From positions 1,922,001-1,986,000 of the forward strand of contig OZ024883.1 in NCBI GenBank assembly GCA_964017185.1: 64,000 bases of DNA, in the 5' to 3' direction. The notes beneath the pieces are model-generated. The model worked only from the letters and a program-made list of their open reading frames with translations, did not search any database and had not been told where the DNA came from. The DNA comes from Rugalucina vietnamica. Taxonomy: Eukaryota; Mollusca; Bivalvia; Lucinida; Lucinidae. A program made the translations under genes and the position numbers. Below, in pieces: positions 8,514 to 64,000 of the stretch (position 1 is its first letter; each line of letters begins with the position of its first letter).

Positions 8514-8598
8514 CTGCAATCGCAACAACGTTTATCACCGTAATACACAAAGTGATTATTGTCAGTCCCTCGTAAGTTATGAATCGAAGATACGTCAT
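8514..8598 (-). CDS. Orphan leader-peptide exon of receptor gene 0
   Basis: ATG at 8598 begins MTYLRFITYEGL, followed by a hydrophobic run ending in VVAIA, then one base of the next codon and a GTATGG donor. The exon is 85 nt, phase 1, and identical in design to 27334-27418 and 40294-40378. The matching lectin exon should lie beyond the (AAT)n tract to the left. There the sequence is a LINE fragment instead, so the rest of gene 0 is either beyond the window or lost. Confidence 0.65.
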
Positions 8599-8599
8599 C

Positions 8600-13510: not shown

Positions 13511-13679
13511 AGGATTACAAAAAAACCACAGCTGTTAGTATTACATTCTACGATAGATCTACAAGATGTCCTTTTAACATTGCAGGAGGCACTTGATGTA
13601 TCATGCTCCAGCAAAGGTTAACATCCCTGGCCCTGGTTCAGTCAACATGTGATTCATTCAAACCCCTGACTCCCTAAAC

Positions 13680-17809: not shown

Positions 17810-18243
17810 TTAGCTTGTGGATTGTGCTGTATCTTTGGGTGGTATAGTGGGCTCTCTCGTACAGGCCGGCGGCATTGGAAGACCCTTGCTGACGGTTGAC
17901 ACGTTGAAATTATCGGTGACTGGTTGAGAGTTCTGAGTAAGCTTTGAATCTATACTGGTATTATTTTGGGGTAGTGGTGATGGTATGATGTTCCGGTCCC
18001 CTATGTCGAACAGGTTTGTATTTACACGCTTTGGTGGAGTTGGAAATCTGGGTTTTGACGGCATTGTTATTCCGGATGTTGAGTGCTGGTTGGTGTGACG
18101 GACTGGCCTGGATTCCAGTGGCGATATCTGCCGATATTTGGCTTTCGCAACATAACAAACCGTCAGAGACAGTATGGTGAAAATCAAGACTATACCCCCG
18201 GTTACAATCGTGTATAGGTAAACTGTATCATCATCAGGAGCAT
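17810..18243 (-). CDS. Gene A exon 6: TM and truncated cytoplasmic tail
   Basis: TTTTCAG acceptor at 18244-18250. The exon begins in phase 1 and encodes APDDDTVYLYTIV, a hydrophobic stretch, KYRQISPLE, a Pro-rich region, and then ...AQSTS followed by TAA. In gene B the same codon is GAA, so one base change made the stop. Confidence 0.8.
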
Positions 18244-20123
18244 CTGAAAACCAAGAGGAGTAGAAAATAAATCGGTTTGGGTGTTGTCAAAAACAAATAT
18301 TCCCATCCGCCGTTTAATTTTCAGGTAAATGCGAAAAGGAAAAACGATTTTAACCATTACATATTATTATATTTGAAGAAAAGATATTTTACATGTAAGC
18401 CCATGCAGAACATTGTGAGGGACTTCGATAGATTCTATGGTCCGACTGAGCAATGATCGAATTCAGTCTAGTGAGACCAGAGTGACGCCATTCGCAGACC
18501 CGATTGTTCAACCAAGCCTTCGCTGGAACAAGTATGGCCGACAGTGTTGAAAATATTTCCTGGTTCTCTAATTCAAAGATAAACGGTCATTTGGGGGCTA
18601 TATTTTGATATTTTTCTTGTTTCTTTGATGCTTGAATTAATTTTCCCCATGTTCTTTTACTCTGTCTACTGAAATACTCTCTCTTCTTTGACTTGATACA
18701 AAAAAAGGAGACGGCTGTTCATGGGCGCCGCCATATTTTCTAGACCATAGATCAACCAAACATCGTTCGGTCACATTTTACATGTAGCTTAAAGCAAGCT
18801 CAATAACATCTTCCGGGACTAGACTATGGTCTGAGATCGAAGTCGCTCCGTATGAAACTTTGACAAAAGTGTCACGCGGCAATTAAAACAGTATCTACGT
18901 GTGCTCGTATGTTATTCAGAGAATGGAAACATGGGGGTCACCAAATACATGCGTTTTTGGAATTATTGCTTACTATTTTCTAGTGTATTTGAGTTTTCGG
19001 TGGTTTTGGTAGTTGTAACTTGGCCCACGGTTGTTATTGCGTCGCTGGTAGTTACTAGCTGAGTGATTGTTATTGCGTCACTGGTAGTAACTTGTTGACT
19101 GGTTGTTTGAACGTCACTGGTAGTGACTTGCTGACTGGTTGTTTGAACGGCACTGGTAGTGACTTGCTGACTGGTTGTTTGAATGTCACTGGTAGTGACT
19201 TGCTGACTGGTTGTTTGAACGTCACTGGTAGTGACTTGCTGGCTGGTTGTTTGAATGTCACTGGTAGTGACTTGCTGACTGGTTGTTTGAACGTCACTGG
19301 TAGTGACTTGCTGACTGGTTGTTTGAATGTCACTGGTAGTGACTTGCTGGCTGGTTGTTTGAGCGTCACTGGTAGTGACTTGCTGACTGGTTGTTTGAAC
19401 GTCAGTGGTAGTGACTTGCTGGCTGGTTGTTTTAACGTCACTGGTAGTGACTTGCTGACTGGTTGTTTGGGCGCCACTGGTAGTGACTTGCTGACTGGTT
19501 GTTTGAGCGCCACTGGTAATGACTTGCTGACTGGTTGTTTGAGCGTTACTAGTAGTGGCTTGCTGACTGGTTGTTTGAGCGTCACTGGTAGTGACTTGCT
19601 GACTGGTTGTTTGAGCGTCACTAGTAGTGACTTGCTGACTGGTTGTTTGAGCGTCACTGGTAGCGACCTGCTGACTGGTTGTTTGAGCATCACTGGTAGT
19701 GACTTGCTGACTGGTTGTTTGAGCGCCACTGGTAGTGACTTGCTGACTGGTTGTTTGAGCGCCACTGGTAGTTTTTTGCTGACTGGTTGTTATTGCGTCA
19801 GTAGTAGTGACTCGGTCACTCGTTGTAAAAGCGTCACTGGTTGTTGGAAGCAAATCACTGGTAGTTGTTTCTGAAACCAAGATGTATGCACTTGTGGTTT
19901 ACACGCAGAACCCTGTTTAAAGATATCATCCAAAGTATTCCAGTTCTAAAACTTTATTGAAACGGATAATACTTGTATTCTAGATTTTCTCATGTTATTA
20001 GTGTATAGGATCTTTGATTAAGAAGGATTATATTAAGACGTCTGTTGTCAACCAAAATTCAAATTTGAAATCTACCAAAGTCCCAGTAACTTATATAACT
20101 GATCGATCCAAGGCGACGCATAT

Positions 20124-20161
<38 letters not shown>

Positions 20162-23100
20162 ATTCAGTTTTACGTCCCTTTCAAGCTTTTTCACTCATAT
20201 CGAGACGAATCAATCGGTAGGTGGGGCGAAAACCGGAGTAACCGGGGAAAAACCACCTGGCACACCCGCAAGCAGAACATGGCTTGTCTTACATATGAAT
20301 TCGTGCCCCGTGCGAGGCGCGAACCCACATCGGTGAGATGATCGAATGATCAAGAGCACTGAAGTCAGCGACCTTAACCACTCGGCCACGGGGGGCCGCC
20401 CATATTGAGTTGTGTTGTGATATCAGTTGATATTGTTTTCAAGCTGATTGGCCATCTTTTGAAAGTAAATATTCCCTCAAGCCGTATGATGATTTTGTTT
20501 ATAAGTCTTTTAATCATTTCCCGTTCAGATTTCAGGGATACGGGTACTAGCATGTTTGTTATATGCTTTCGTTTCGTTTCGGCTCATTGGTTATTGTTAA
20601 TTTTACCTACCGAGTAGTATTACTTCGCAGACATAATTTTTACTTTCAGAACCAGTGCATAGATAGAGGATATTCAAGTTTTTGGAGTGAATATGAGTTT
20701 TATTTCATTGAGTGAAGTGAAAATTTTTATATTTCATGAGTGCCGAAGGCACGAATGAAATATATAATTTTTCACTTCACGAGATGAAATAAAACTCATA
20801 TTCACGACAAAAACTTGAATGTTCTTTTTATTATATTGCATCCAGTCATTGTAACGTTGCGCGCTAAAGCATATGACGTCAAAATCTTAAATGACGTCAT
20901 TACGTCACGTCATTACGTCGCTATTGTGTGTGAACGTTCATTGCGTCAACAATAGCATAGATTATAAAATTTAGTTATGTATAAATTAGAAATGAAACGG
21001 TGGAATCGTAATTTGCGTATTCCCAAATCTTATATTTTCACATGTGAAAATATAACTTTTTTATATTTTCACATGTGAAAATATAACTTTTTCAAATATT
21101 GGTTATATTTAGTACATATTTCTCTATATTTCATCACTTGCCATATAATAAAAACTTTTTTCTACCTTCCTTTGAATGTTTGCATTGCTCCAAAAGGATC
21201 TAAAATTTATATTTATAAATTTATAAATTTCTATATATTGTTTATTGTAAACGTTTAACGTACCGAGAAGTGTTACTTCGCAGACATAATTTTTACTTTC
21301 AGAACCAGTGCAGGCAGTTTTCCACACCTCTATGAAAGCTGAAAACACATCTATATCTCCGCATCCGTCTGTTGAGGACCCCAAACCTAATAGTTCATTT
21401 ATGTGTAAGAAACTGTATGATTTAATACATACACATAGATCCGAAAATTCATAGAAAGGTACAAGTAGGCAAAGATCAGGAAAAGGCGCAATCAGAAAAA
21501 GATTCCCACTCCAAAAACCGAGGTGGGAAAAAACCAAACTAACAATCAGGTACTCATACCATGAAACATATCGTAAGCCGAATGAGCAGCTATTTTCCCA
21601 ATAGGTGGCCACTCAGTTACCTTAACTTAACTAAAAATATGAAAACATACATAAGGCGCCAACAGCACAAAAAAAATTTATACGCCAAGACATAAAACAA
21701 AAAGAACCGCCACAGAAGTATCGACTTGGAACGATCAGTAACACAAAGTTACTGGCGGGCTTAAACCGGTTTTACATGGCCATAACCTCACCCTCAGCTT
21801 CTGCAGTGGTTCATAACATTTAGTTAGTTATTCGGTCCTCGTGGTGAATCTCTAACTAGTCAATGAATCATCAAGAACAAACAGATAAATCGTGATAAAC
21901 ATCCTGATGAATCACAAACCAGGACTCACAGACTGAGTAAGCTGCCCGACGATGGAGATCCCTGGGCGCCGAATAACCTACTAACTCCGGAGCAAAAGAA
22001 AAACACCAGTTGGACCCCGGTGGGCCAAGCAACAGACAAGAAGCTCCGGTCCCAACCAACTAAAATGAATAGCTTTATGTCGGGGCCATCATAGAGTCTG
22101 ACGCCCGACCCACCGGCGTGCAATTAAAGAAGGCAGCATAGTTATCAACCATGATTGGGTTAAAAACTAAGCATGCAGACTGTCGCATAACATTCAAGTT
22201 ATAACCTATACGTCTGTAACGTGTTATGATTTTTCTGAACTGAAAAGAAAAATCATTAATTCCTTTAAGTTTCTTAAATTTGTAAACCAAGTCACCATAA
22301 AATTCAGGTTCCGAAAGGCCCTCACTTAAAAGCGTCTTTAACCCAACATTATATTTGGAAATCAATTCATAGTGCCTACGATAAAATTTAGAAAATGTTT
22401 TTCGAAGTTTATGATACCGATAGCCCTGTTGGAGAAGTTTTGCCGTTAAACATTTATTTCGAGCGTTGAAGTCTGTAACATGATTGCAGACTCTAGCAAA
22501 CCTAATAAGTTGCGAAATGTATACACCATAAGAAGCACGACGAGGAACGTCACCATCCAAAAAAGGAAAATTTACTATATCAAAATCAAAGTCATCGCGC
22601 TTATCATAAATTTTAGAAGAAACAAATCCATTTGCAACAGAAAGATGTAGATCTAAAAAGGGGGCTTCAGTATCTGAGATATTGGCTTTGTTCAACTGAA
22701 GTTCAGGTGGATAAATTTGATTGACCATACCTTCAAAATAAGGGTTGTCAATGTTCAAAAGGTCATCGAGGTACCTAGATGTGGAATTAAAAGCCTCGAT
22801 AACATCAGCTTGATTATCATGGTTAAGAGAATCCATGAAATCTCTTTCGTAGCAGTATAAAAATAAATCAGCTACGAGAGGTGCGCAATTTGTACCCATC
22901 GGAATTCCAACAATTTGTCTGTATAACTTGGTCCCAAATCTAATATAAATATTATCAAGGAGATAGGATAAGGCGTCGCATACATTCTGACATGACCAAA
23001 GTGTATACCGACTTTGGTCAGAGGAAGTGAAAAAAGCCTTTTTGTCATTACATGCCATATAAAGTGAACCATAGTTTTTTAATGCCCTTTTGAAGGTCCA

Positions 23101-24156: not shown

Positions 24157-25573
24157 TTTTAAAAGGCAAATATGAATTGAAAAAAAAATCTAGCAAGGGC
24201 ATTAACTTCCTATATATATGAGGATATAATATGTGACAGAAGACGGTTCTATTGATGAATCGTATATCTAAAAACGTGAATATCTGATCAAATTAAATAA
24301 TTATAAAGATAAAGTAAGATGTTTAAAGAAGTGTATTACTGTGTACCGTATGGACTAATTCGTTGTGGTAGCAAGGTTAGCAGTATGCTAAAAGAAGTGT
24401 TTTGCTGTTGTGGATGATTTGAACGGTATTTGCTATCATCATGTTTGAACAGCGCATTTAAATGTGTAGCTTCAACAGAACAGACGTACATGGTTTGTAT
24501 ATCTGGTACCACTGTTTATTGGTTTTATGACTAATAGGTGTAATATGATCCAGAAGTTGTGGGGCGGGAATAATGAAGTGATTATCATCACAGTCATTTG
24601 CACTCCGACAGTTTTTAAGTGCCTCTCTATCAGTAAAATAAATTAAAACTTTTAAGAGCAGTGAACATGTTGATGGGACAGTGAATGGGCCACGCCATAG
24701 TTTCGGCTACATAAGCCTCGTCAGTGACCCTATAGATTTGGCAACATGGAGCCTAAGAAAATTGCTGCAAGTTTGCAACTTTCAACAGGACAGTCGCTAA
24801 AAAAAAACTAGGCATATGTCATCAAACACATGATAACAATATGCCTTTCAGCTCATGAATACCTTAAAAAATTCCTACCATCAGAAACCTCTATATCTTC
24901 TGAGAGCTGTTCACCAGTTGACCACTTCCATACACCATCCCCACCTTTTGTTAGCCCCACCCACCATGTCGTGAAGTCCTCAATGTCGGATAAATATTCT
25001 GTAAGTAATCAAAATTTCACACAGAAAACAAACTCGTCCTAGAGACATCCTCTCTATAGCAATACCCGTTTGCTAGACGTTCGGTATAGCAGAGCTTCGA
25101 TATCTCTCAAATATATACAAGAGTATATGAAACTGATACGAAGCTCTAGATCAAAGCCTTTATCAACTTGATGAAAAAGGAACAAGTAGGTAATGACCAG
25201 GAAAAGGCGAAATCAAAAAGATATTCCCACAACAAAAAGCCGAGGCGGGACAAACTAAATTGACAATTAGGTACTTATACTTAGAGAACATACCGTAAGC
25301 CGATAGGCGGCCACTCAGTAAAACAAATTGGTTATCAGAAATTCAGAACATGAATACTACTATAGCCGTGCGAAAAGATGCATAAACTCATACATACGTC
25401 CAATAAATTCATACTCATCGGTTGATGTTATACTGGCTAGATCACCACCGTGTTGTTGACACAGGTCACGTGCAACTGACCACTCCTTTACTTGATCAGT
25501 AAAACCTTGGTAACAGTGACAACCGTTTGTAACCGGCCTACCAACCCTGTTACCACCACAGTCACACACGCCT

Positions 25574-25624
<51 letters not shown>

Positions 25625-27418
25625 TTATTACTGTTACTGTAATCTCAATTGTTTGAAATTGCAGTATATTTATCTGGCTATCGTCGCCGGTTTATAAAGG
25701 GTCACTGATATGAGGGTTCAGTATTCGAAATTGCGCAATATGGCCCATACTACTTTAACGTTTTCACTGCTTCCAAAGGATCAAACTTTTATATTTTATT
25801 CCCTAGCTGCGATATTAAATTTTGATGCGTCAAATAGCGATAACGCGTTCGAAGTTACTAGCAATATAAGTTTGCTGTGACCTCTGATTAATAGGTCGAA
25901 TGGTTTCAAAGGTTACTTACCAAGCACACAACGTCTATTAACACACATGCCTTTATCGATCTTTACGTTCAGACACACTTCTATCAGATGGAATTAATAT
26001 GGACCACGCAAAGCGGAAAAAAGACATCATCGATATTCTCAAGATGGAGTATTTCTGGCAAAATAAAGTTGATGGAATACCGGATAGGGCGATTACCCCT
26101 TAAAAACCCCAATAGAAAAATACCGCTTGTTCTTATAGAAGAAGTCAATGTTGGCAGGTGGAGATATTCGAGGCCGACAACGTAATAAAGCTGTCCCTGT
26201 TTAATAACCTGGGAGTCATTGATTGAAACATTATGCCCTGTCGACTCTGCAATTCACCATCCGGCTTCCAGGGACTAATGTTACGGTTTATACGAGATCT
26301 GAACCTCAGAGATTGTCTCTGCATATAGTGAACAATAGCAAGCTTTCCAAAGATGACGCTTTAGACGGACAATGAGAAAACAAGGATAGGCTCACAAGAG
26401 AAATCACACACTAGGGCGCAACATCAAAGGGGAGTGTCAACAGTGTCACATCAGAAAGTAAAAACATAAAGTTCCTTGGTGTTTTGCAGTCCATTTCTCA
26501 TCCCGTCTGTGTTGAAGTATCGGAACTACCTCTGGTTTTAAATGAATTAGAGTAGTAACAACCAGAACAGGATGCTGCACTTAAAACTCAATATTGTGTC
26601 AATGCACAGGAGGAAGATGGACAAATAAAGAGCGTGAAACAACTGCTGGAACGAGTCCAGCTGCCAAAAACGGAGGTAATCTCTCGACATTGACATTTTT
26701 TCTGAAACATCTTGAGAAGTTTTGTTTCCTTTATACAATTTGGTACAAAAATTGGTACAAAAATTGTTTCGTTGAAGATCAAGAGATACTACAACTACTG
26801 ATATGTTCCCCTGATACAATACTCAATACGTGTCACGGCGATTTTGCTCATGTATGAACAACTACCTTTAGGATCCAGGGCAACAGATTTTATTAATATC
26901 GAATCTTATGCGCCAATCAAAAATGAGTGTTATATTTTCTTGAAAAAAGGTACAAGCAGGCAACGATCGGGAAAAGGCGCAATCAGAAAAAGAATTAGGT
27001 ACTTATTCAATGAAAACATATCGTAAGCCGAATGAGCAGCTATTTTTCCCAATAGGTAAATTGACTGATCCAGAGTTGGGTATGAAACATTATAATCATC
27101 ACGTATCACTTCACTAGGTATGTACATATTTTCATACTTTTTATTATATCGGCCATAGTTTTGGTTTTTTTTTACTAATTTACCAAGAATTTTATATTGA
27201 TAAAGTGCACTTGATACGCTTGATACGCTTGAGTAGCCATATTCAGTGTTAATGTCGATTCTTTCACTTGGCTACCAAACTTCTCACAATTGTTTTGTGA
27301 TCTGAGGTCAAAAAAGAAAAAGAAAGTCCATACCTGCACTCGCAACAACGTTTATCGCCGTAATACACAACGTGATTATTGCCAGTCTCTCGTAAGTTGT
27401 GAATCGAAGATACGTCAT
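17810..27418 (-). CDS. Receptor gene A: CTLD, mucin-like stalk, TM, short tail
   Basis: The model joins 27418-27334, 25571-25398, 24998-24879, 21386-21264, 19870-18974 and 18243-17810: 1833 nt, 610 aa, all introns phase 1, all borders GT/AG. Residues 1-28 are a leader ending ASA|G. Residues 29-168 form one C-type lectin-like domain (CHCYQGF, AR.LC..HGGDLASI, WWVGL, W.W..G..L, YVCE) with eight cysteines. The EPN/QPD and WND calcium-sugar motifs are not present. Residues 168-466 are Thr/Ser/Gln repeats, likely O-glycosylated. One TM segment covers about 474-498, followed by a tail with KYRQISPLE. A premature TAA removes the last 38 residues conserved in B. A 2-kb Penelope-like element sits in the third intron. 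Type I membrane topology is inferred. The CTLD call is strong; the biological role is unknown. Confidence 0.8.
18244..18973. other. Gene A intron 5
   Basis: The intron is noncoding and collinear with 32501-33175 of gene B apart from an extra segment of about 50 bases near 18396-18450. No repeat family was recognised. Confidence 0.6.
18974..19870 (-). CDS. Gene A exon 5: mucin-like minisatellite
   Basis: The exon is 897 nt, phase 1-1, built almost wholly from a 36-bp unit encoding variants of TTSQQVTTSDAQ. GGTTTCAG acceptor, GTAAGC donor. It is seven units longer than the gene B exon (897 minus 645 = 252 = 7 x 36). The repeats leave long open frames on the other strand that are shadows. Confidence 0.85.
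19871..20600. other. Gene A intron 4, part, with SINE
   Basis: It is collinear with 33821-34255 in gene B except for the SINE at 20125-20400. Confidence 0.55.
20125..20400 (-). repeat. tRNA-headed SINE
   Basis: On the minus strand the head (20400-20305) has TGGCCGAGTGGTTAAGG (A box, Leu/Ser-like) and GGGTTCGCGCC (B box). The body follows, with an A tail of more than 30 bases (T tract at 20127-20160). The gene B intron lacks it, so insertion followed the A/B duplication or was lost in B. Confidence 0.8.
20611..20662 (-). pseudogene. Remnant of a second CTLD C-terminal exon
   Basis: The minus strand reads CTGSESKNYVCEVILL and a GTAGGT donor, the 3' half of the exon at 21264-21386. Its 5' half is missing and is replaced by sequence leading into the fold-back at 20672. 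Its downstream flank matches the gene B flank, unlike the intact exon. Confidence 0.75.
20672..20820. repeat. Fold-back palindrome
   Basis: Arms of about 73 bases (ATTCAAGTTTTTGG... and its complement) meet at GTGCCGAAGGCAC. It probably marks an end of a non-autonomous element running to about 21110, which also holds two copies of TATTTTCACATGTGAAAATA. Confidence 0.85.
20872..20930. promoter_or_regulatory. Cluster of TGACGTCA-like (CRE) motifs
   Basis: ATGACGTCA occurs twice (one full ATGACGTCAT), followed by TTACGTCACGTCATTACGTC. These match the CREB/ATF palindrome. The cluster is in a repeat-derived stretch of gene A intron 4, so a regulatory role is only possible. Confidence 0.3.
21264..21386 (-). 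CDS. Gene A exon 4: CTLD C-terminal part
   Basis: 123 nt, phase 1-1. It encodes GSSTDGCGDIDVFSAF, EVWKTACTG and NYVCEV. The donor-side flank (21160-21263) resembles gene D (61900-61983), whereas the acceptor-side flank resembles gene B, so the exon region looks recombinant. Confidence 0.8.
21456..23436 (-). mobile_element. Penelope-like retroelement, 5'-truncated, in gene A intron 3
   Basis: Absent from the gene B intron, where CATAGAACATAC is uninterrupted; both junctions show TAGAA, a possible 5-bp target duplication. On the minus strand it holds an open RT frame of about 450 codons (22075 to about 23430) and a 3' UTR of about 600 bases. The first dozen codons of the open frame (23463-23430) come from host flank. 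The same 3' UTR is dispersed as short fragments across the window. Confidence 0.75.
22075..23430 (-). CDS. Reverse transcriptase ORF (Penelope-like)
   Basis: The frame is intact, with YWLPKLHKRPYKARFI (RT start), YDFSTLYTTLPH, GIPMGTNCAPLVADLFL and the catalytic box RYLDDLL, then FLDLHLS, YDKRDDFDFDIVNFPFL and GVYISQLIRFARVC. It ends with VGRASDSMMAPT and TAA. No GIY-YIG endonuclease domain is visible after the RT. RT identity is firm. Assignment to the Penelope-like group rests on motif style and needs a tree. The 5' part of the ORF is missing. Confidence 0.75.
   Translation of the reverse strand, partial: STMYWLPKLHKRPYKARFIANSSSCTTTELSKLLTSCLTAIKSHVIRYCETVYETSNKNWFWSIKNSGEVLSKLKCRGFRATSLSTYDFSTLYTTLPHNLIKEKLLDLIEWTFKRALKNYGSLYMACNDKKAFFTSSDQSRYTLWSCQNVCDALSYLLDNIYIRFGTKLYRQIVGIPMGTNCAPLVADLFLYCYERDFMDSLNHDNQADVIEAFNSTSRYLDDLLNIDNPYFEGMVNQIYPPELQLNKANISDTEAPFLDLHLSVANGFVSSKIYDKRDDFDFDIVNFPFLDGDVPRRASYGVYISQLIRFARVCNHVTDFNARNKCLTAKLLQQGYRYHKLRKTFSKFYRRHYELISKYNVGLKTLLSEGLSEPEFYGDLVYKFKKLKGINDFSFQFRKIITRYRRIGYNLNVMRQSACLVFNPIMVDNYAAFFNCTPVGRASDSMMAPT
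23605..23925 (-). repeat. SINE-body repeat
   Basis: It is recognised by ACGTCCCAGTCAACAGC, CATGTCGGGACGTTG and GAACAAGCTTTGC. Copies occur at 34650-34952 (duplicate locus), 53525-53785 and 53965-54200, and a tRNA-headed relative at 11340-11540. Confidence 0.65.
24121..24151. repeat. (AG)n microsatellite
   Basis: A short (AG)n tract preceded by ACACAC. The gene B counterpart (35143-35217) is a longer (AC)n(AG)n tract. Confidence 0.9.
24879..24998 (-). CDS. Gene A exon 3: CTLD central part
   Basis: 120 nt, phase 1-1, TTACAG acceptor, GTAGGA donor. It encodes YLSDIEDFTTWWVGLTKG, GVWKWSTGEQL and EVSD. WWVGL is the core CTLD motif. Confidence 0.85.
25168..25322 (-). mobile_element. Solo 3' end of the Penelope-like element
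   Basis: It contains GGAAAAGGCGAAATCAAAAAG and GCCGAGGCGGGA. The duplicate copy in gene B is at 36618-36785. Confidence 0.65.
25398..25571 (-). CDS. Gene A exon 2: CTLD N-terminal part
   Basis: 174 nt, phase 1-1, GTATGT donor. It encodes VCDCGGNRVGRPV, GCHCYQGF, WSVARDLC and HGGDLASITSTDEYEFIG. The acceptor TTATTATTACAG is formed by the adjoining (AAT)n microsatellite (25575-25621). Confidence 0.85.
25572..27333. other. Gene A intron 1
   Basis: It holds (AAT)n (25575-25621), the shared interspersed repeat, a short gypsy RT fragment (25995-26150), and a Penelope-like 3' end (26943-27062). The LINE present in the sister introns is deleted here, leaving only its edge near 27140. Confidence 0.6.
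27334..27418 (-). CDS. Gene A exon 1: leader peptide
   Basis: ATG at 27418 in the context AAAGATGA. It encodes MTYLRFTTYERLAII, then a hydrophobic core ending VVASA before Gly, a good signal peptidase site. GTATGG donor, phase 1. Its sequence is conserved with 8514-8598 and 40294-40378. Confidence 0.75.
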
Positions 27419-31952: not shown

Positions 31953-32500
31953 TTACTCAGAGTCTTCAACATCTATCAAGGGATCCGCTTTTGTCTGCGC
32001 AGTCAGCTCGTGGTGGGGAGGGTGCAGTGAACCTGGGCGATTAAACAAGTCAGACATATTCTTCGTTTCGCTTGTGGATTGTGCTGTATCTTTGGGTGGT
32101 AAAGTGGGCTCTCTCGTACAGGCCGGCGGCATTGGAAGACCCTTGCTGACGGTTGACACGTTGAAATTATCGGTGACTGTTTGAGAGTTCTGAGTAAGCT
32201 TTGAATCTATACTGGTATTATTTTGGGGTAGTGGTGATGGTATGATGTTCCGGTCCCCTATGTCGAACAGGTTTGTGTTTACACGCTTTGGTGGAGTTGG
32301 AAATCTGGGTTTTGACGGCATTGTTATTCCGGATGTTGAGTGCTGGTTGGTGTGACGGACTGGCCTGGATTCCAGTGGCGATATCTGCCGATATTTGGCT
32401 TTCGCAACATAACAAACCGTCAGAGACAGTATGGTGAAAATCAAGACTATACCCCCGGTTACAATCGTGTATAGGTAAACTGTATCATCATCAGGAGCAT
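31953..32500 (-). CDS. Gene B exon 6: TM and cytoplasmic tail
   Basis: 548 nt to TAA, phase-1 start, GTTTTCAG acceptor. The tail is uninterrupted, unlike gene A. Confidence 0.85.
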
Positions 32501-35140
32501 CTGAAAACCAAGAGGAGTAGAAAATAAATCGGTTTGGGCGTTGTCAAAAACAAATATTCCCATCCGCCGTTTAATTTTCAGGTAAATGCGAAAAGGAAAA
32601 ACGATTTTAACCATTACATATCATTATATTTGAAGAAAAGGTATTTTACATGTAATGATCGAATTCAGTCTAGTGAGACCAGAGTGACGCCATTCCCAGA
32701 CCATTGTTCAACCAAGCTTTCGCTGGAACAAGTATGGCCGACAGAGCTGAAAATATTTCCTGGTTCTCTAATTCAAAGATAAACGGTCATTTGGGGGCTA
32801 TATTTTGATATTTTTTCTTGTTTCTTTGATGCTGGAATTTATTTTCCCCATGTTCTTTTACTCTGTCTACTGAAATACTCTCTCTTCTTTGACTTGATAC
32901 AAAAAAGGAGACGGCTGTTCATGGGCGCCGCCATATTTTCTAGACCATAGATCAACCAAACATCGTTCGGTCACATTTTACATGTAGCTTAAAGCAAGCT
33001 CAATAACATCTTCCGGGACTAGACTATGGTCTGAGATCGAAGTCGCTCCGTATGAAACTTTGACAAAAGTGTCACGCGGCAATTAAAACAGTATCTACGT
33101 GTGATCGTATGTTATTCAGAGAATGGAAACATGGGGGGGTCACCAAATACATGCGTTTTTGGAATTATTGCTTACTATTATCTAGTGTATTTGAGTTTTC
33201 GGTGGTTTTGGTAGTTGTAACTTGGCCCACGGTTGTTATTGCGTCGCTGGTAGTTACTAGCTGAGTGGTTCTTATTGCGTCACTGGTAGTAACTAGCTGA
33301 GTGATTGTTATTGCGTCACTGGTAGTAACTTGTTGACTGGTTGTTTGAACGTCACTGGTAGTGACTTGCTGACTGGTTGTTTGAATGTCACTGGTAGTAA
33401 CTTGCTGACTGGTTGTTTGAATGTCACTAGTAGTGACTTGCTGACTGGTTGTTTGGGCGTCACTGGTAGTGACTTGCTGACTGGTTGTTTGAACGCCACT
33501 GGTAGTGACTTGCTGACTGGTTGTTTGGGCGTCACTGGTAGAGACTTGCTGACTGGTTGTTTGAGCGCCACTGGTAGTGACTTGCTGACTGGTTGTTATT
33601 GCGTCACTGATAGTGACTTGCTGACTGGTTGTTATTGCGTCACTGGTAGTGACTTGTTGACTGGTTGTTTGAGCGCCACTGGTAGTGACTTGCTGACTGG
33701 TTGTTTGAGCGCCACTGGTAGTGACTTGCTGACTGGTTGTTATTGCGTCAGTAGTAGTGACTCGGTCACTCGTTGCAAAAGCGTCACTGGTTGTATGAAG
33801 CAAATCACTGGTAGTTGTTTCTGAAACCAAGATGTATGCACTTGTGGTTTACACGCAGAACCCAGTTTAAAGTTATCATCCAAGTTATTCCGGTACTAAA
33901 ACTTAATTGAAACGGATAATACTTGTATTTTAGATTTTCTCATGTTATTAGTGTATAGGGTCTTTGAGTAAGAAGGATTATATTAAGACGTCTGTTGTCA
34001 ACCAAACTTCAAATTTGAAATCTACCAAAGTCCCAGTAACTTATAACTGATCGATCCAAGGCGACGTATATTAGTTTGTGTTGTGATATCAGTTGATATT
34101 GTTTTTGAACAAGCTGATTGGCCATCCTTTGAAAGTAAATATTCTTTGAAAGTAAAATAAGTATTTTAATCATTTCCCGTTCAGATTTCAGGGATACGGG
34201 TACTAGCATGTTTGTTATAGGCTTTCGTTTCGTTTCGAGTCATTGGTTATTGTTAGTTTTACTTACCGAGAAGTGTTACTTCGCAGACATAATTTTTACT
34301 TTCCGAACCAGTGCAGGGAGTTTTCCACACCTCAATGAAAGCTGAAAACACATCTATGTCTCCGCACCCGTCTGTTGAGGACCCCGTACCTAAATGTTCA
34401 TAAATTTATAAGAAATTGTATGATTTAATACATACACATAGATCCGAAAATTCATAGAACATACGCTGTAATGAACAATCATGAAAGTAAAAGACATAAG
34501 GCTAGGCCTTTAATGTTAACTAAGGTACTGCCGATGGCTAACGTAATTACAATTTAAAACAATGAGGATGACGAATGAACTACAAAATATAAATACAAAA
34601 TATCTATGGAATTGCTAACGAGATAAAGAAAATTTGTTTGAACTGTTTGAATTCATGCTTTACGTCCCAATCAACAGCTAATGTCATGTCGGGACGTTGC
34701 CTCCACTTTATGAGATTTTTACACAAAATGAGGATGTCACGACATCCAACAAGTGTTTAAAATATAACCACCCAACATAGCAACAAAGGCTTATATGTGT
34801 GGACGGTTTGACTTGAAACCACTTTTCCTGGGCAAGCTCAGACCTGAGCGGTTAACCAGTAATCAGATGGTCAGTCAGCAGCGAACAAGCTTTGCATGGA
34901 GGCACAAAGCAGCACATCGGGGCCCATATTCCCACTCGGCCACCCTTAAGAGATAAAGAAGAAAGGCTATATTCATGCATACGTGAAACTTGAAAACTTA
35001 CATGGAATTATGGAAGTAGAACTTTGGAAATTCAATTTGAAACATATGTAGGTTGTAGCACAATAAAATAGTCAGAGGAAATGAATTAATATTAGATAGG
35101 CTGTGTGAGAAGAGAAGATAGAAAATATAAATGGCGCATA

Positions 35141-35222: not shown

Positions 35223-37035
35223 ATTATATGTACATTTAAAAGGCAAATATGAATTGAAAAAAAAATCTAGCAAGGGCATTAACTTCCGATATATATGAAG
35301 ATATAATATGTGACAGAAGACGGTTCTATTGATAAGGCGTAAAATAAAAATAGCCTTGTTTCCGCTAACATGCTGAAGATGGGGTAGAGTCGGTAGGTCG
35401 GAAAATCTTTTTATTTTTCGTGTATTTTTTCTTTCTTGAAAATGAATAAAAAGGGTAGAAACACGCTACAATTAATCATAAGTACTCGAAACAAACGTGC
35501 GATGAAGTTTAAAACCAGTAGGAAGCTAGCGAACGCGAATTGACCTAGTATTGTTAAAATTATAGCAGTTTTTAAATCATTGTCTGTTTTCCACTTCAAA
35601 TGTTGAAGGTCGGCCGGCATGAAAATATTTTTATTTTATTTTTATTGGCAATTAAAACTGCAGGGTCGGCGCAAAACCTCAGAGTCGGTCGGGTTAGCGG
35701 AAACACAGCTATTTTTGTTTACGCCTAACGTGAAATACAAGATTTATCTGATCAAATTAAATAATTATAAAGATAAAGTAAGATGTTTAAAGAAGTGTAT
35801 TACTGTGTACTGTATGGACTAATTCGTTGTGGTGGCAAGGTTAGCAGTATGCTAAAAGAAGTGTTTTGCTGCTGTGGATGATTCATTCGAACGGCATTTG
35901 CTATCATCATGTTTGAACAGCGCATTTAAATGTGTAGCTTCAACAGAGCAGACGTACATGGTTTGTATATCTGGTACCACTGTTTATTGGTTTTATGACT
36001 AATGTGGTGTAATATGATCCAGAGGTCGTGGGACGGGAATAATGAAGAGATTATCATCACAGTCATTTGCAGTCCGACAATTTTTAAGTGCCTCTCTATC
36101 AGTAAAATAAATTAAAACTTTTAAGAGCAATGAACATGTTGATGGGACAGTGAATGGGCCACGCCATAGTTTCGGCTACATAAGCCTCAGCAGTGACCCT
36201 ATAGATATGGCAGCATGGAGCCAAAGAAAACTGGTGCAAGGTTGCAACTTAGGGTAGTCGATACAAAAACAAGGCATATGACATCAAATACATGATAACA
36301 ATACGCCTTTCAGCACATGAACACCATACAAAATTCCTACCATCAGAAACCTCTATATCTTCTGAGAGCTGTTCACCAGTTGACCACTTCCATACACCAT
36401 CCCCACCTTTTGTTAGCCCCACCCACCATGTCGTGAAGTCCTCAATGCCGGATAAATATTCTGTAAGTAATAAAAATTTCACACAGAAAACAAACTTGTC
36501 CTAGAGACATCCTCTCTATAGCAATACCCGTTTGCTAGACGATATCCCCCAAATATATACAAGAGTATAATGAAACTGATACGAAGCTCTAGATCAAAGC
36601 CTTTATCAACTTGATGAAAAAGGAACAAGTAGATAATGACCAGGAAAAGGCGAAATCAAAAAGATATTCCCACACCAAAAAGCCGAGGCGGGACAAACTA
36701 AATTGACAATTAGGTACTTATACTTAGAGAACATACCGTAAGCCGAGTTAGCAGCTATTTGCCAATAGGCGGCCACTCATTAAAATACATCGGTTATCTG
36801 AAATTCAGAACATGAAGACTACTATAGCCGTGCGAAAAGATGCATAAACTCATACATACGTCCGATAAATTCATACTCATCGGTTGATGTTATACTGGCT
36901 AGATCACCACCGTGTTGTTGACACAGGTCACGTGCAACTGACCACTCCTTTACTTGATCAGTAAAACCTTGGTAACAGTGACAACCGTTTGTAACCGGCC
37001 TACCAACCCAGTCACCACCACAGTCACACACGCCT

Positions 37036-40000: not shown

Positions 40001-40378
40001 TCCACTTATGTGTAGATCCTCTAATCCCGTAGAAGTCAAGTTTGTATAATAACCTTTTATGTGGGACCTTGTCATACGTTTTTATTATATCGACCATTAT
40101 TATTATTATTATTATATTTTTTGGGGGGTGGGGGGGAGGATTACTAATTTACCAAGAACTTTATGTTGATAAAGTGCACTTGATACGCTTGAGTAGCCAT
40201 ATTCAGTCTTAATGTCGATTCATTCACTTGGTTACCAAACTTCTCACAACTGTTTTGTGATCTGAGGTCAAAAAAGAAAACGAAAGTCCATACCTGCACT
40301 TGCGACACCGTTTATCGCCGTAATACATAAAGTGATTATTGTCAGTCCCTCGTAAGTTATGAATCGAAGATACGTCAT
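31953..40378 (-). CDS. Receptor gene B: CTLD, mucin-like stalk, TM, full tail
   Basis: The model joins 40378-40294, 37033-36860, 36460-36341, 34389-34267, 33820-33176 and 32500-31953: 1695 nt, 564 aa, all introns phase 1. The leader is residues 1-28 (VASA|G), the CTLD about 29-168, the Thr/Ser/Gln stalk 168-382, the TM about 390-414, and the tail about 150 aa. The tail holds KYRQISPLE next to the membrane, Pro-rich stretches (FPTPPKR, LPMPPAC), and an end module with LFNRPGSL and DVEDSE that is also kept in gene C. The CTLD has WWVGL and eight cysteines but no EPN/QPD or WND calcium-sugar motif. This is the most intact full-length member in the window. Intron 1 holds a dead LINE and a gypsy fragment. 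Confidence 0.8.
32501..33175. other. Gene B intron 5
   Basis: Noncoding, with no repeat family recognised. It is nearly identical to the gene A counterpart. Confidence 0.6.
33176..33820 (-). CDS. Gene B exon 5: mucin-like minisatellite
   Basis: 645 nt, phase 1-1, with the same 36-bp unit as gene A. Some units read TTSDAI instead of TTSDAQ. GTAAGC donor. Confidence 0.85.
34267..34389 (-). CDS. Gene B exon 4: CTLD C-terminal part
   Basis: 123 nt, ATTTAG acceptor, GTAAGT donor. It encodes GSSTDGCGDIDVFSAF, VWKTPCTG and NYVCEV. It differs from genes A and D by a Pro in place of Ala before the cysteine. Confidence 0.85.
34390..36340. other. Gene B intron 3
   Basis: It contains the SINE-body repeat (34650-34952), (AC)n(AG)n (35143-35217) and an extra segment of about 400 bases (about 35335-35735) absent from gene A. 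It lacks the Penelope-like insertion. Confidence 0.6.
35143..35217. repeat. (AC)n(AG)n microsatellite
   Basis: About 17 AC units run into about 20 AG units. It is expanded relative to 24109-24151. Confidence 0.95.
36341..36460 (-). CDS. Gene B exon 3: CTLD central part
   Basis: 120 nt, phase 1-1. It encodes YLSGIEDFTTWWVGLTKG and VWKWSTGEQL. Its borders match gene A. Confidence 0.85.
36618..36785 (-). mobile_element. Solo 3' end of the Penelope-like element
   Basis: Duplicate of 25168-25322, slightly longer at its right side (TTAGCAGCTATTTGCC). Confidence 0.65.
36860..37033 (-). CDS. Gene B exon 2: CTLD N-terminal part
   Basis: 174 nt, phase 1-1. It encodes VCDCGGDWVGRPV, GCHCYQGF and GGDLASITSTDEYEFIG. 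Its acceptor lies at the end of the (AAT)n tract 37037-37073. Confidence 0.85.
37214..37277 (+). mobile_element. Very short 3'-end insertion of the Penelope-like element
   Basis: About 60 bases ending CTTTGCCTACTTGTA interrupt GAACGTTTTCACTGC, which is whole at 2190 (GAACG) and 25750. It is the most extreme 5' truncation of the family here. Confidence 0.65.
37515..37845 (+). pseudogene. Gypsy-like RT fragment, duplicate
   Basis: Sister of 3491-3830 with further small indels. It retains NSPYSSYVVAT and, in another frame, CIDLRGICN. Confidence 0.55.
38980..40097 (-). pseudogene. Dead non-LTR retrotransposon RT (jockey-like), copy 2
   Basis: Duplicate of 7150-8290. It keeps FADD but shares the missing residues between SGVP and LFLIF. 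The frame breaks earlier, near 39660, because of a 4-base GCTG duplication. It sits in gene B intron 1. Confidence 0.8.
40294..40378 (-). CDS. Gene B exon 1: leader peptide
   Basis: 85 nt, ATG at 40378. It encodes MTYLRFITYEGLTII, then a hydrophobic core ending GVASA before Gly. GTATGG donor. Confidence 0.75.
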
Positions 40379-47946: not shown

Positions 47947-48488
47947 CTAGTCGGAGTCATCCATATTAACCGAGTGGTCCGTGTTTAGCTGTGGAGTCGG
48001 GTGATGATGGAGGGGTGGAAGTGTCCCAGGACGGTTAAACAGTTCCGACGCACTCTTCCCATCGCTGGTTGATTGCTGAGGATCTCTTGGTGCCATAGTG
48101 GCCTCTCTAGAGTGTAGAGGAACTGCCTTGCCCATATTGCCGGATGTCATGTGGACGTTCTCAAAGTCATGTTGGACGTTCTGTGAAATCGTCGGTTCCA
48201 TTCTGGTATTAAGTGGTGGTAGAGGTGCTGGTTTGAGATTATTCTCACCTATCTTATGATGGTTGGTGTTGATATAAGATTGAGTAGGGGGGAATTTCGG
48301 CTGTGATGTTAGAACCCCGTTGGGTGTGCTGATGTTGGTTGGACGAGCTGAACTGGGTTCCAGTGGTGATATCTGGCGATATTTGGTTTTAACAATATAA
48401 CAAGCAGTTAAACCCAATATGACGAAGATCACGACGAGGCCACTTGTTACTATTCCAGCTATGGCAACACCATCGTTACTATCAGCTG
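47947..48488 (-). CDS. Gene C exon 3: TM and cytoplasmic tail
   Basis: 542 nt to TAG, TATTTCAG acceptor, phase-1 start. The tail is clearly homologous to gene B but diverged, so the conserved patches (KYRQISPLE, LFNRPG, C-terminal acidic DS) stand out. Confidence 0.85.
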
Positions 48489-50369
48489 CTGAAATACAAA
48501 ATGGAGAGGTTATCTTTACTTTAATATTACTTCTTAATCCAGCCCAAACAAACTAATGCGTAATAAATAGATGGAACAATAAATTAAATCTTTCAAGTTT
48601 TAAATACAGGCGTCAAGGTTGAAATTTGCTTCCATGAGATATGACAAAAACAAACAAACAAAACGCCAATGATGCACACTTTGCTCATGGTGAAAAGGGT
48701 AGTTTAAAACTGTTTGCTTGCTTTGTTCTGTTTTCATTATCGTTCCTTGATTATTTTACAGTTATTTGTAGTCTTTTGAAAATGCCGATGGCACTTGAAA
48801 TTTAGCAGTAAGATAAGACAATAACTAAGAGGTGTTGCTTGTACTTGTCAATTATACCCCAAAAGGATTAACTTCACAGCAACAAACATAGTTACGAGTT
48901 TACATAAAATACGTTTCTAGATTGTAAATACTTACTAGTCGCAGATGTTGCGGCTTCCTTTGAAGCGCCTTTAGTGTTTGATGGCTTTCGTGTTGTCGAC
49001 GTACTTTGTGTTGTTTTGGACTGTGATGTTGTTGTAGTAGATACAATCTCTGGTGTAGATTTCGGTGCAGCCGTTACCATACCTCCAACAGTCGAGACTG
49101 TATCACTATTGGTTGTTTCTAGACCACCTGTAGTGGTTATCTCACCAGTTGTCATTCCTGCTTCATTTGTTGTTATGGCAACTTCACTTGTCGTCGTGAC
49201 CATTCCACTTGTCAGTACATCGCTTGTGGTCAGTGCAGTGTTTGTTGTCAATTCATCACTTGTGGTCAAAGCATCGCTTGTGGTCACTGCATCGCTAGTT
49301 GTCAAGCGATCATTTGTGGTCATAGCATCGCTTGTGGCCAATGCGTGACTTGTGGTGAATGAATCACGTGTTGTCATTGAATCACTTGTGGTCAATGCAT
49401 CGCTCGTGGCCAATGCAGCACTAGTGGTCAATGCATCGCTCGTGATGAAAGATTCACTGGTGGCTAGTGCAGCACTTGTTGTCAATGCATCGCTCGTAGC
49501 CAATGCAGCACTTGTTGTCAATGCATCGCTCGTGGTCAGCGCTTCACTTGTGGTCAACACACCACTCGTGGTCAGTACATCGCTCGTGGTCAATTCAGCA
49601 CTTGTGGTCAATGCACCGCTCGTGGTCAATGCAGCACTTGTGGTCAGTGCGTCGCTCGTGGTCAATGCTTCGCTCGTGGCCAATGCTTCGCCCGTGGTCA
49701 TTGCAGCGCTCGTGGTTAATGCTTCACTTGTAGCATCACTCGCTGACATTGCAACGCTTGTTGTCATACCCTGACTCGAGGTCTGTGCGCCGCTAGTTGT
49801 CCATTGACCAGTTGTGGTCCATACACCGCTTGTCTGGACATTTGTCGTTGAGAATATCCCACTTGTAACTGCGTAACCGGTAGTTGACCACGGACCAGTT
49901 GTCGATGAAATAGCTGAAATACAATCATCAGCTCTTCTTCGAAAAGATGGGTGGGGGCTGGGGACAGTAACGATAATATAAAACTATAAGAAGAGGGTAA
50001 CGAAGACCTTTTGTGAGCGATGTAAATTATTTCAATATAACTAACAGTTATGCTGACATTGTGCATTTTAGACCTAGAATTAATAAATTAAAGAAAGAAT
50101 ACCGGTATGCTTAACAGATCATAGCTTGATAAATTAGAAAGTAAATGGATTATTTTATAGATAAACAAAATGCATGCAGTACCTTGCTTACTTGTCAGTG
50201 GTCAGACTCTGCACACGTAAAACAATGCAAATTACTGACCAATTATGTCTTTGGTTTGTCTGACATAAGATCAAAATGAAGTAACTGACTTACCCGTCCC
50301 TGGCAGAAAAACAAGCAGAGCTGTTATCCACACCGTGAACTTTCTTAATTGGTGAACAGTTGATGTCAT
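47947..50369 (-). CDS. Gene C: mucin-like single-TM protein without CTLD
   Basis: The model joins 50369-50294, 49913-48936 and 48488-47947: 1596 nt, 531 aa, phase-1 introns, GT/AG borders. Residues 1-25 are a leader (MTSTVHQLRKFTVWI then a hydrophobic core ending LPGTG). Residues 26-351 are Thr/Ser/Ala-rich: an opening non-repeat part with TTGPWSTTGYAV, then 18-bp-based repeats of the ALTTSD type. One TM covers about 359-384. The tail starts KYRQISPLEP and ends with LFNRPGTLPPLHHH and MDDSD, like gene B. The upstream flank shares the conserved block of the A/B leaders. It is a coherent short gene that skips the lectin domain. It may also supply 3' exons to gene D. Confidence 0.75.
48936..49913 (-). 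CDS. Gene C exon 2: Thr/Ser-rich stalk
   Basis: 978 nt, phase 1-1, TATTTCAG acceptor, GTAAGT donor. The repeat unit is 18 bp (ACCACAAGTGCTGCATTG-type), and the last third is less regular Thr/Ser/Val-rich sequence. Opposite-strand open frames here are shadows. Confidence 0.8.
50294..50369 (-). CDS. Gene C exon 1: leader peptide
   Basis: 76 nt, ATG context AAAAATGA, GTAAGT donor, phase 1. It begins MTS and ends in Gly at the split codon, paralleling the MTY leaders of A and B. Confidence 0.7.
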
Positions 50370-60554: not shown

Positions 60555-61562
60555 CATTGTTATGCATATCAAATGCATCGCTTGAAGTCAGTGTATAGCT
60601 CGCTGCCAATGCATCGTTTGTTGTTAAAACATCGTTTGTCGTTATTGCAGCGCTTATTGTTAGTGCATCGTTGGACATCATTGCAGCGCTTGTTGTTAAT
60701 GCATCGTTTGTCGTCATTGCAGCGCTTGTTGTTAATACATCGTTTGTCGTCATTGCAGCGCTTGTTGTTAATGCATCGTTTGTCGTCATTGCAGCGCTTG
60801 TTGTTAATGCATCGTTTGTCGTCATTGCAGCGCTTGTTGTTAATGCATCGTTTGTCGTCATTGCAGCGCTTGTTGTTAATGCATCGTTTGTCGTCATTGC
60901 AGCGCTTGTTGTTAATACATCGTTTGTCGTCATTGCAGCGCTTCTGGTTAATACATCGTTTGTCGTCATTGCAGCGCTTGTTGTTAATGCATCGTTTGTC
61001 GTCATTGCAGCGCCAGTTGTTAATACATCGTTTGTCGTCATTGCAGCGCCTGTTGTTAATACACCGTTTGTCGTCATTGCAGCGCTTGTTGTTAATACAT
61101 CGTTTGTCGTCATTGCAGCGCCTGTTGTTAATGCATCGTCTGTCGTCATTGCAGCGCTTGTTGTTAATAGATGGTTTGTCGTCATTGCAGTGCCTGTTGT
61201 TAATACATCGTTTGTCGTCATTGCAGCGCCTGTTGTTAATACATCGTTTGTCGTCATTGCAGCGCCTGTTGTTAATACATCGTTTGTCGTCATTGCAGCG
61301 CTTGTTGTTGATGCATCGTTTGTCGTCATTGCAGCGAGTGTTGTTAATGCATTGTTTGTCGTCATTGCAGCGCTTGTTGTTAATACATCGTTTGTCGCCA
61401 TAACATGGCTTGTTGTTAATGCATCGTTTGTCGTCATTGCAGCGCCTGTTGTTAATGCATCGTTTGTCGTCATTCCAGCGCTTGTTGTTAATGCATTGTT
61501 TGTCGTCATTTCAGCGCTTGCTGTTAATGCATCGTTGGTCATCATTGCAGCGCTTGTAGTCT
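60555..61562 (-). CDS. Gene D stalk exon: 36-bp minisatellite
   Basis: 1008 nt, about 28 units of 36 bp (ALTTSAAMTTND variants), phase 1-1, AATTTAG acceptor. It ends DAFDMHNN before GTACGT. The unit differs from that of A/B (TTSQQVTTSDAQ) yet has the same length. Long open frames on the plus strand are shadows. Confidence 0.8.
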
Positions 61563-64000
61563 CTAAATTTAGTGGACAGAAATGTATAAACTTTCACATC
61601 AAATGTATAAAACGACTACCAGTATACGTATGTAGCATTAATTTAAAATTGATGTTATAATCATTCTTTCTTTCGTTTAATATTTCAGATATGTTAGTAT
61701 TTCAGATGACATTTTCGCTTTGTTTGAAACAGGTAGCTTGGCGACCACGATGTAAGCTATACCTACTCCTTCTGCTTACCGCTTCGTGTTTTAGTAGTAT
61801 ATCCTGCCGATTTACTTCAATGTTTATGGGCGTGTAGCATCTCGATTTTTTGTGTAATTTACTGTGTAATTAAGCATGCATAGAAACTTTTTTCTACCTT
61901 CCTTTGAATGTTTGCATTGCTCCAAAAGGATCTAAAATTTATATTCATTTCTATATATTGTTTATTGTAAACGTTTAACGTACCGAGTAGTGTGACTTCG
62001 CAGACATAATTTTTACTTTCAGAACCAGTGCAGGCAGTTTTCCACACCTCCATGAAAGCTGAAAACACATCTATGTCTCCGCACCCGTCTGCTGAGGACC
62101 CCGTACCTAATATTATTAATTAACTCATACATGTAAGTAATAGTACTTGGTCTGTGGCATACTGGTGATGTTTCTTTCTTTCTTTTTTTTTTTTTTTTTT
62201 TTTGTATAGTCTATACTGGATTTCACCTTGACTTGATACAGCTGACCTCGCACTAATACAGCTGACCTCGTTTCTGTATGGATTTACCTGCTATCTATAT
62301 TGAAATCCCTATATCTGATTGGTCAAAATACGACCCGCAAGGTCACGTGCCGCGTTGAATGAGTTGAGACAAAAAACAATGGCGGCGATTCAGCCGATCG
62401 AGTAAATAGTGAACAAACAACCAAAATCATGTCAGCATCATTGAAAAGAATGTCAGACATTGGCACTAAACATGGCGATTGTATGCTTGAGGTGCTAGCG
62501 AATGAGACCGATATGGACTTTTGACAGTTAATTTATAAAAATCTCATTAATCAAGTTATTTCGTATACCAGTTACAGGTCCGAGGACAGTTGTAACTGGT
62601 CCAATACGAAATAACTTGATTAATAACATTATAATAGGTACACTTAAAATGCAACAATAAAATAACCCACAATCTATGTTTTAAGCAAAAATAAGAAAAA
62701 CATCAAAAGTTTTCTACTGAAATTTTTAAATTGTTACAACTTAGGTAAACGCTGTATATTACATGGGCTTGTTTTCATAATAGACAAAAAATGACTATAT
62801 AGTGAACCTTTTACCATCAGAAACCTCTATATCATCTGAGAGCTGTTCACCACTTAACCATTTCCATACACCATCCTCACCTTTTGATAGTCCTACCCAC
62901 CATGTCGTGAAGTCAGCAATGTCGGACAAATATTCTAAAGTTGATACATAGATCTAAGGAAACTGTTATCAACAAAGAACATCGACTCGCCCGCGTTTTA
63001 GGGTTTATAGTAGAGTTGCTTATGTAACGAAAAATGCTCCCGTGGACTTTTCTTGTTAATCAGGGTTTTTATATACCAAAATGTTTATAAGCATGTGTAG
63101 GTTTCAAAAATGTTTCCTGCCATTTTTTCTATTAACTTTCAAGGTCAAGGTCAAAGGTCAAAGGTCACGGCTAAGGCTTAATGGTGTGACTTACAATATC
63201 AATAATTATGACCAAGATAATGTTTTTGAAAAGTACAAAACTAGTGTAATTGATAGTAAACACATTTCGACAATTTTTGATGTCACTTTCAAGTGACCTT
63301 GAAAACCCAATTCTAAAGGTCAAGGTCATTTATGCCAAATTTGTAAGAAAAATTACAGACATACGGCTTATTTATCGGCGCATTACAAAGTCAGCAGTAT
63401 ATAGAATGAATCTTTGACATAGATGGTATCTTGAATATTTGTGGGTTTGGTGTATTAGTCATTTGCACCTCCATGTCACAAACAGTTGCCATAGCAACAG
63501 CACTTTATGGTAGCCTTAGCGTGAATTTTGAATGATTTTAATAGCTCATTTAAGTGCTTAATCATTGAATTTTCTATTAGTTTTGTAGTGGTTTTGAATC
63601 ACCATGGGGATAAATGAAAATGTTTTAATGCATTTATTACTAGCATAAACAATCCCCACAACTTTAATTTTACAGTTAAAGGTCAAGGTCAAATGATAAT
63701 GGTCGAATGATACAACGAACACCCCGTCCATGATCCCCTTTTAAAATAATGCCGAAACGGGGATATATATATACAAGATTAATCATATGTCAGCAACAAC
63801 TTGCCTTAAATCATTGAAATCGAAGCAAAGATAGACCCCTTTCATCTCATGGTAACATTTGCAAATTATCTAATTTGCATATTCATGAATATTAATGAAA
63901 ACATAAAGAAATCACTGAAAAAAAAAACAACAAGAAAACCACCGTGGTATTCCTGGAGCTAATTTGACTTACCTTGCGCCCCAGAAAGTGCAAAATCATT
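60555..64000 (-). CDS. Gene D: CTLD plus mucin-like stalk (partial)
   Basis: Exons seen are 64000-63973 (partial, continuing out of the window), 62934-62815, 62106-61984 and 61562-60555, all phase 1 with GT/AG borders. They encode the end of the CTLD N-terminal part (NDFALSGAQ), the WWVGL part (YLSDIADFTTWWVGLSKG), the YVCEV part, and a 336-codon stalk of ALTTSAAMTTND units. No leader is in view and no TM/tail exon homologous to A, B or C exists between 60555 and 50370. The stalk donor (GTACGT, phase 1) is compatible with the acceptors of gene C exons 2 or 3, so D and C may be one transcription unit with two starts. The reading frames are intact. Confidence 0.7.
61563..61983. other. Gene D intron between stalk and CTLD
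   Basis: Its right part (61880-61983) is shared with gene A 21155-21263. Confidence 0.6.
61984..62106 (-). CDS. Gene D CTLD C-terminal exon
   Basis: 123 nt, phase 1-1, GTACGT donor. It encodes GSSADGCGDIDVFSAFME, VWKTACTG and NYVCEV. Confidence 0.85.
62107..62814. other. Gene D intron between CTLD exons
   Basis: It contains a T-rich tract at about 62170-62203, a fold-back (62546-62624, arms ATTAATCAAGTTATTTCGTA) and a diverged copy of the fold-back arm from 60011-60120. Confidence 0.6.
62815..62934 (-). CDS. Gene D CTLD central exon
   Basis: 120 nt, phase 1-1, TTTAG acceptor, GTAAAA donor. It encodes YLSDIADFTTWWVGLSKG, GVWKWLSGEQL and EVSD. Confidence 0.85.
62935..63972. other. Gene D intron with AGGTCA-rich repeats
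   Basis: It contains AAGGTCAAGGTCAAAGGTCA (63141-63160) and further AGGTCA half-sites in both directions to 63690. A single unit related to the 41070-44695 element is at about 63860-63910 (ATTTGCATATTCATGAATAT). Confidence 0.55.
63973..64000 (-). CDS. Gene D CTLD N-terminal exon, end only
   Basis: A strong GTAAGT donor (63967-63972) follows coding sequence NDFALSGAQ, which fits the end of a CTLD first half just before YLSDIADF. Only 28 bases are in the window, so this is tentative. Confidence 0.45.

Follow-up and report, generated by a model that had tools for sequence, protein, structure and literature searches.

The window, a stretch of 64,000 nucleotides from Rugalucina vietnamica (C15:1922001-1986000), contains a cluster of duplicated genes, all on the minus strand, which encode predicted surface proteins with a lectin-type head (CTLD) and a stalk of variable length. 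Sequence evidence gives good support to the initial annotation's proposal of a tandem array of lectin/mucin-like membrane receptor genes. The four or five genes in the cluster are provisionally identified as type I single-pass surface receptors working by the mechanism set out below, a reading to which a probability of roughly 0.6 is given. Across units 0, A, B, C and D every exon junction keeps the frame, with phase-1 introns throughout, and in the sequence-derived models of A, B and C all introns have GT/AG borders. The description of five units each possessing all parts is wrong, as C lacks a CTLD, D lacks a transmembrane (TM) segment and tail of its own, and unit 0 is represented in the window by its leader only; there may be four genes rather than five.

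Gene B comprises six minus-strand exons that splice to 564 amino acids: a leader exon (40294..40378), CTLD exons 1, 2 and 3 (36860..37033, 36341..36460 and 34267..34389), a Thr/Ser stalk exon with 15.3 copies of a 36-bp minisatellite (33176..33820), and an exon carrying the TM segment, the full tail and the stop codon (31953..32500). The six exons of gene A, on the same strand, splice to 610 amino acids and consist of a leader exon (27334..27418), CTLD exons 1, 2 and 3 (25398..25571, 24879..24998 and 21264..21386), a Thr/Ser stalk exon with 22.3 copies of a 36-bp minisatellite (18974..19870), and a TM and tail exon with a premature TAA at its end (17810..18243), the tail being 38 residues shorter than that of B, while a B-like frame would reach 17697. 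All these exons are taken from the gene models, combined with TRF for the stalks, and both frames close at the lengths initially annotated, across five introns each, all in phase 1.

On the minus strand of the gene A intron between CTLD exons 2 and 3, a 466-aa open frame (22078-23475) matches no Pfam family in a Pfam scan and has what we take to be a Penelope-like look. The gene A intron before the stalk carries a tRNA-like short element with a poly-A run (20127-20420, minus strand), with no counterpart seen in the corresponding intron of B, and downstream of gene A exon 3 the 3' end of CTLD exon 3 is repeated as 17 codons followed by GT (20609-20659, minus strand). An open frame in intron 1 of B (39600-40148, minus strand) is near-identical to a reverse-transcriptase fragment (RVT_1, 2.7e-12) in intron 1 of unit 0 (7694-8359, minus strand).

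The leader exon of unit 0 (8514..8598, minus strand; gene model) has 28 codons and a phase-1 donor, and the remainder of the unit lies 1.2-22 kb to the left of the window, with exons from -1204 to -22128 in window coordinates. The 5' part of its CTLD exon 1 is lost or replaced, with a phase-1 acceptor still readable, giving a predicted product of 652 amino acids. A weak Rfam tRNA match at 5391-5452 (minus strand; 29.6 bits against a cut-off of 29), where ARAGORN finds none, is probably a tRNA-derived repeat, and an ATA microsatellite of ~765 bases with a 37-base higher-order period occupies positions 1043-1807.

Two exons of D, the leader (70257-70170) and CTLD exon 1 (69815-69642), lie to the right of the window (window coordinates, minus strand; outside-window sequence). 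Within the window and on the same strand, D has CTLD exon 2 (62815..62934) and CTLD exon 3 (61984..62106), both from the gene model, and a Thr-rich stalk exon with 26.3 copies of a 36-bp minisatellite and a phase-1 donor (60555..61562; TRF and gene model). C consists of three minus-strand exons, namely a leader-like exon with a phase-1 GTAAGT donor (50294..50369; leader scan and gene model), a Thr/Ser stalk exon with 28.6 copies of an 18-bp minisatellite (48936..49913; TRF and gene model) and a TM and tail exon 43% identical to the B tail (47947..48488; similarity and gene model), which close in frame at 531 amino acids as initially annotated. No Pfam family scores above cut-off in these 531 residues, hence C has no CTLD, and none was found for it in the 380-base leader-stalk intron or in the 10 kb upstream with regular expressions, by eye in 85 open frames or in the genome search. 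No TM/tail for D is found by similarity or by the TM-exon scan between the D stalk and the C leader, the scan giving zero phase-1 matches on the minus strand from 60.5 to 50.4 kb. A tandem array of ~190-base units (3.8 copies, 57499-58201) lies between the D stalk and C, and just downstream of C are two inverted repeat arms of 228 bases (46396-46623 and 47624-47851), 90% complementary and 1 kb apart, which resemble a non-autonomous DNA element.

The head domain is identified by the Pfam family Lectin_C, which matches residues 57-163 of spliced B (7.7e-10; 39.9 bits against a cut-off of 22.6) and is detected in 4/4 whole CTLDs scanned (B, A, D and a relative on contig C4, with E up to 1 and unit 0 left out); D exons 2 and 3 without exon 1 give no Pfam match above cut-off. 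A Pfam scan of B with E up to 10 returns solely Lectin_C and one sub-threshold viral family, with no EGF-like and no sushi domain, and no Pfam match to SEA or VWD domains occurs in B or C. In the genome searched (1.09 Gb, 47 contigs), the CTLD search finds 12 exon-sized matches in the array, which are exons 1, 2 and 3 of 0, A, B and D, together with an additional 16-residue fragment within an intron of A. The nearest PDB sequences belong to the mannose-receptor family (IgY receptor, Ly75 and PLA2 receptor), with best values of 2.7e-24 for a whole multi-domain chain and 2.1e-8 for the best single domain of that chain. In 6/6 CTLD pairs among 0, A, B and D, dN is lower than dS; dN/dS is ~0.27 for D against A or B, 0.33 for A against B and, for unit 0, 0.42 against A and 0.62 against B. 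Classical calcium-dependent sugar-binding lectins contain EPN or QPD plus WND in the long loop, and as none of EPN, QPD and WND is present in the CTLDs of B, A and D read from the sequence, these domains are not of the classical type. Atypical motifs have been reported to bind sugars in bivalves in passages of PMC12842671, and the array CTLDs may thus still bind sugars.

The stalks comprise 310 residues in unit 0, 298 in A, 214 in B, 335 in D and 325 in C, with 30-35% Thr, 7-16% Ser and 0-1.2% Pro. Their encoding by minisatellites, as initially annotated, is seen in frame: the repeat period is 36 bp in 0 (23.3 copies) as in A, B and D, and 18 bp in C, and in the main TRF rows 5/5 stalk arrays show a period that is a multiple of 3 and 0% indels, while a second TRF row of the B array, with 18-bp units, has 15%. 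Among the remaining arrays in 164 kb, the two that reach 300 bp with a period of up to 100 have 3-4% indels; the 190-bp array at 57499 has 5%. An uninterrupted frame by itself was not accepted as evidence for a stalk, other frames of the repeats being open too. In the proposed frame, the repeats of the C stalk show 31 nonsynonymous and 39 synonymous changes, a nonsynonymous fraction of 0.44 against an expected 0.72, with 0.87 and 0.86 in the other two frames. Constraint is weak in the stalks of A, B and 0 (0.70, 0.65 and 0.72 against an expected 0.75) and is absent or reversed in that of D (42 nonsynonymous and 8 synonymous; 0.84 against an expected 0.74), all these counts being indicative only, since repeat copies are mutually dependent.

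Scanning both strands of 164 kb (328 kb of strand) for phase-1 TM exons, with thresholds chosen when the real exons were known, yields 9 matches, among which five are the four array tails (that of C twice), three are antisense to the D stalk and one is unrelated. By similarity, the whole genome contains the four array copies of the TM/tail (0, A, B and C) and two distant ones, on C4 and C1. The motif YRQI lies just inside the membrane in 4/4 array tails and is missing in those of C4 and C1, while a P[KR]FP core is found in the array tails and also in C4 and C1; LFNRPG occurs in the tails of 0, B and C, and in A solely beyond its stop. Tail dN/dS is 0.64 for unit 0 against B and 0.47 for B against C. 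The tail tyrosines of 0, B and C, inspected by eye, are found in a juxtamembrane CY, in YRQI, in SYI in C and in SYL in 0. The hemITAM is an acidic YxxL motif; no YxxL occurs among these tyrosines, so no hemITAM is recognised in the three tails. The YRQI tail probably carries an endocytosis-like candidate YxxPhi motif for AP-2.

In the genome as a whole, at least 150 Lectin_C matches pass an E threshold of 0.001, with 150 of 555 candidates scored. At 4/6 loci sampled outside the array a Thr-rich stalk comes after the CTLD, a proportion that is no frequency estimate, as the six were hand-picked from the first 32 of 133 rows of the CTLD search and others were skipped. The locus at C4:7922072-7929284 has CTLD exons, a stalk and a TM/tail 34% identical to that of B, with introns in phase 1 by eye, and contains an 814-residue open frame in which CTLD exon 3 is fused to a stalk with 51/54-bp minisatellites. 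At C5:25159312-25170527, matches to three CTLD exons are accompanied by a TTTSDKV-type repeat stalk and a TM segment in one open frame, with an unrelated tail, while the loci on C13 (~10176620-10182819) and C14 (~41686374-41690251) show a CTLD and then a Thr-rich stalk, with no TM seen in the stretches fetched. The CTLD locus at 42.1 Mb on C12 has TM exons and no stalk, and several CTLD pieces at 56.2 Mb on C1 have no stalk seen. A related TM/tail with a Thr-rich stalk is located at C1:73.58 Mb, with no CTLD match in the 50 kb retrieved there. That the CTLD-stalk order recurs at several loci points to a design used repeatedly in this animal and not to a one-off.

If expressed as modelled, the full protein would contain a signal peptide, one CTLD, a Thr/Ser stalk, one TM helix and a tail of ~150 residues, and the stalk would shift in length by gain or loss of 12-residue repeats. 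The stalk would be O-glycosylated and rod-like and would hold the CTLD well clear of the membrane, where the domain may bind a non-self or self ligand through a face distinct from the classical calcium/sugar site, and the juxtamembrane YRQI and the proline-rich tail may couple binding to clathrin uptake or to cytoskeletal partners. The interpretation as a receptor cluster draws on the frames joining in phase 1, Lectin_C in all four whole CTLDs scanned, dN below dS in every CTLD pair, the constraint on the C stalk, the indel-free stalks, YRQI in each array tail, the same layout on C4 and the in-frame joins from D to C. Against it stand the higher dN/dS in comparisons with unit 0, the lack of constraint on the D stalk, the absence of YRQI from C4 and C1, and stalks almost without proline, unlike typical mucin domains. 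The premature stop in A and the lost 5' part of exon 1 in unit 0 indicate that some copies may be decaying.

The odds are about even that D and C form one gene with an internal promoter. Joining the D stalk donor to the C stalk acceptor gives 1010 amino acids and joining it to the C tail acceptor 684, each with one terminal stop, and the C leader would then be an alternative first exon of the D/C gene producing a head-less form. With a likelihood a little short of one half, C and D are instead separate genes, C being a mucin-like membrane protein that has no head and is driven by its own promoter, and D a secreted lectin-mucin or a decaying fragment devoid of TM/tail. The leader-like exon of C is well-formed and has a GTAAGT donor, which argues that C is a gene of its own; in the leader scan (328 kb of strand, limits chosen with the real leaders known) it is the most hydrophobic of 10 matches, four of which are the leaders of 0, A, B and D and five of which are unexplained, so that otherwise one leader-like exon is met per ~65 kb of strand. 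Separate genes are further favoured by the D stalk, whose frame remains open beyond the donor to 60172, so that intron retention would yield a secreted form, and which shows no protein constraint, as well as by the second TM/tail and Thr-rich stalk on C1, without a CTLD match in its 50 kb. However, C and D are neighbours complementary in parts, and their stalks share ~70% DNA identity across 459 bases. Dividing tail dS by CTLD dS gives, against B, ~4 for the C/D pair (0.94 and 0.23) and ~5 for unit 0 (0.25 and 0.05). With A as the reference unit 0 gives 2.7, and A compared with B gives 0.26 (0.015 and 0.058). All these values come from few sites, and their unevenness marks the array as a mosaic, so the dS argument for a C-D join is weak. 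Gene conversion within the array is likely. More doubtfully, two promoters at the D/C locus may yield forms with and without the head that share one tail, within a lineage-specific family in which the head is kept and changes in the minisatellite alter the height of the ectodomain (stalks of 214 to 335 residues across one cluster).

For the array as a whole, it is rather unlikely that the genes encode ordinary secreted or surface epithelial mucins, in which the CTLD would merely anchor or gel, with neither signalling nor uptake. The long Thr-rich repeats, the CTLDs without classical sugar motifs, and the recurrence of the CTLD and stalk order at other loci with a TM in only 2/4 within the stretches fetched are compatible with such mucins, but the TM exon and long tail of 0, A, B and C, with YRQI in 4/4 tails, and the lack of Pfam matches to SEA or VWD in B and C count against them. 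Still less probable is an array made up mostly of pseudogenes, with B the one working gene among decaying duplicates; in its favour are the stop in the A tail, the truncated exon 1 of unit 0, the split of C and D, the reverse-transcriptase sequence in an intron and the unconstrained D stalk, yet A and 0 keep full stalk frames and splice sites, and all six CTLD pairs have dN below dS.

In bivalves, the CTLD repertoires are reported to be greatly expanded (PMC10140915, in part), and the C-type lectins form large lineage-specific repertoires that include bivalve-only architectures and forms with a C-terminal TM (passages of PMC10140915 and PMC12842671); 146 CTLD proteins are given in the portion seen of an Aplysia survey (PMC9334734). 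Most bivalve lectins reviewed have a single-domain structure, and the C-terminal TM forms include CgCLec-HTM with one CTLD and ScCTL-1 with several, according to sections of PMC12842671. The oyster CgCLec-HTM, a bivalve surface pattern receptor, resembles the array proteins in its single CTLD and its C-terminal TM, but it signals through hemITAM/Syk, whereas the array tails have YRQI and no YxxL by eye; the passages of PMC12842671 on CgCLec-HTM mention no mucin stalk. As a word start, "mucin" is absent from the main text of PMC10140915 and has four uses in the text of PMC12842671, all about ligands. Among the open-licence papers listed in the literature searches, as far as titles, the starts of abstracts and some passages go, the CTLD-stalk-TM layout is not described for molluscs. 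To this extent the initial suggestion of an undescribed family stands, but the layout modifies that of known type I CTLD proteins and is found again at other loci of the genome. In a clustered subfamily, a stalk encoded by a minisatellite offers a simple handle on how copies, and perhaps individuals, differ in receptor height and glycan density.

Membrane mucins with SEA or VWD differ from the array in these domains, neither of which is matched by Pfam in B or C. The nearest known layout is that of the vertebrate group XIV (CD93, CD248/endosialin, CLEC14A and thrombomodulin), which, as described in passages of PMC9167495, are type I proteins with an N-terminal CTLD, a Pro/Ser/Thr-rich mucin-like region, one TM and a short tail, and the models of A and B have the same order of CTLD, mucin-like region, TM and tail. 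Group XIV proteins also contain EGF-like repeats and sushi domains (thrombomodulin has no sushi), and their human genes are intronless or have a single small intron (PMC9167495, same passages), whereas the array has no EGF-like or sushi domains by Pfam, encodes a nearly proline-free stalk by a minisatellite and spreads its CTLD over three phase-1 exons.
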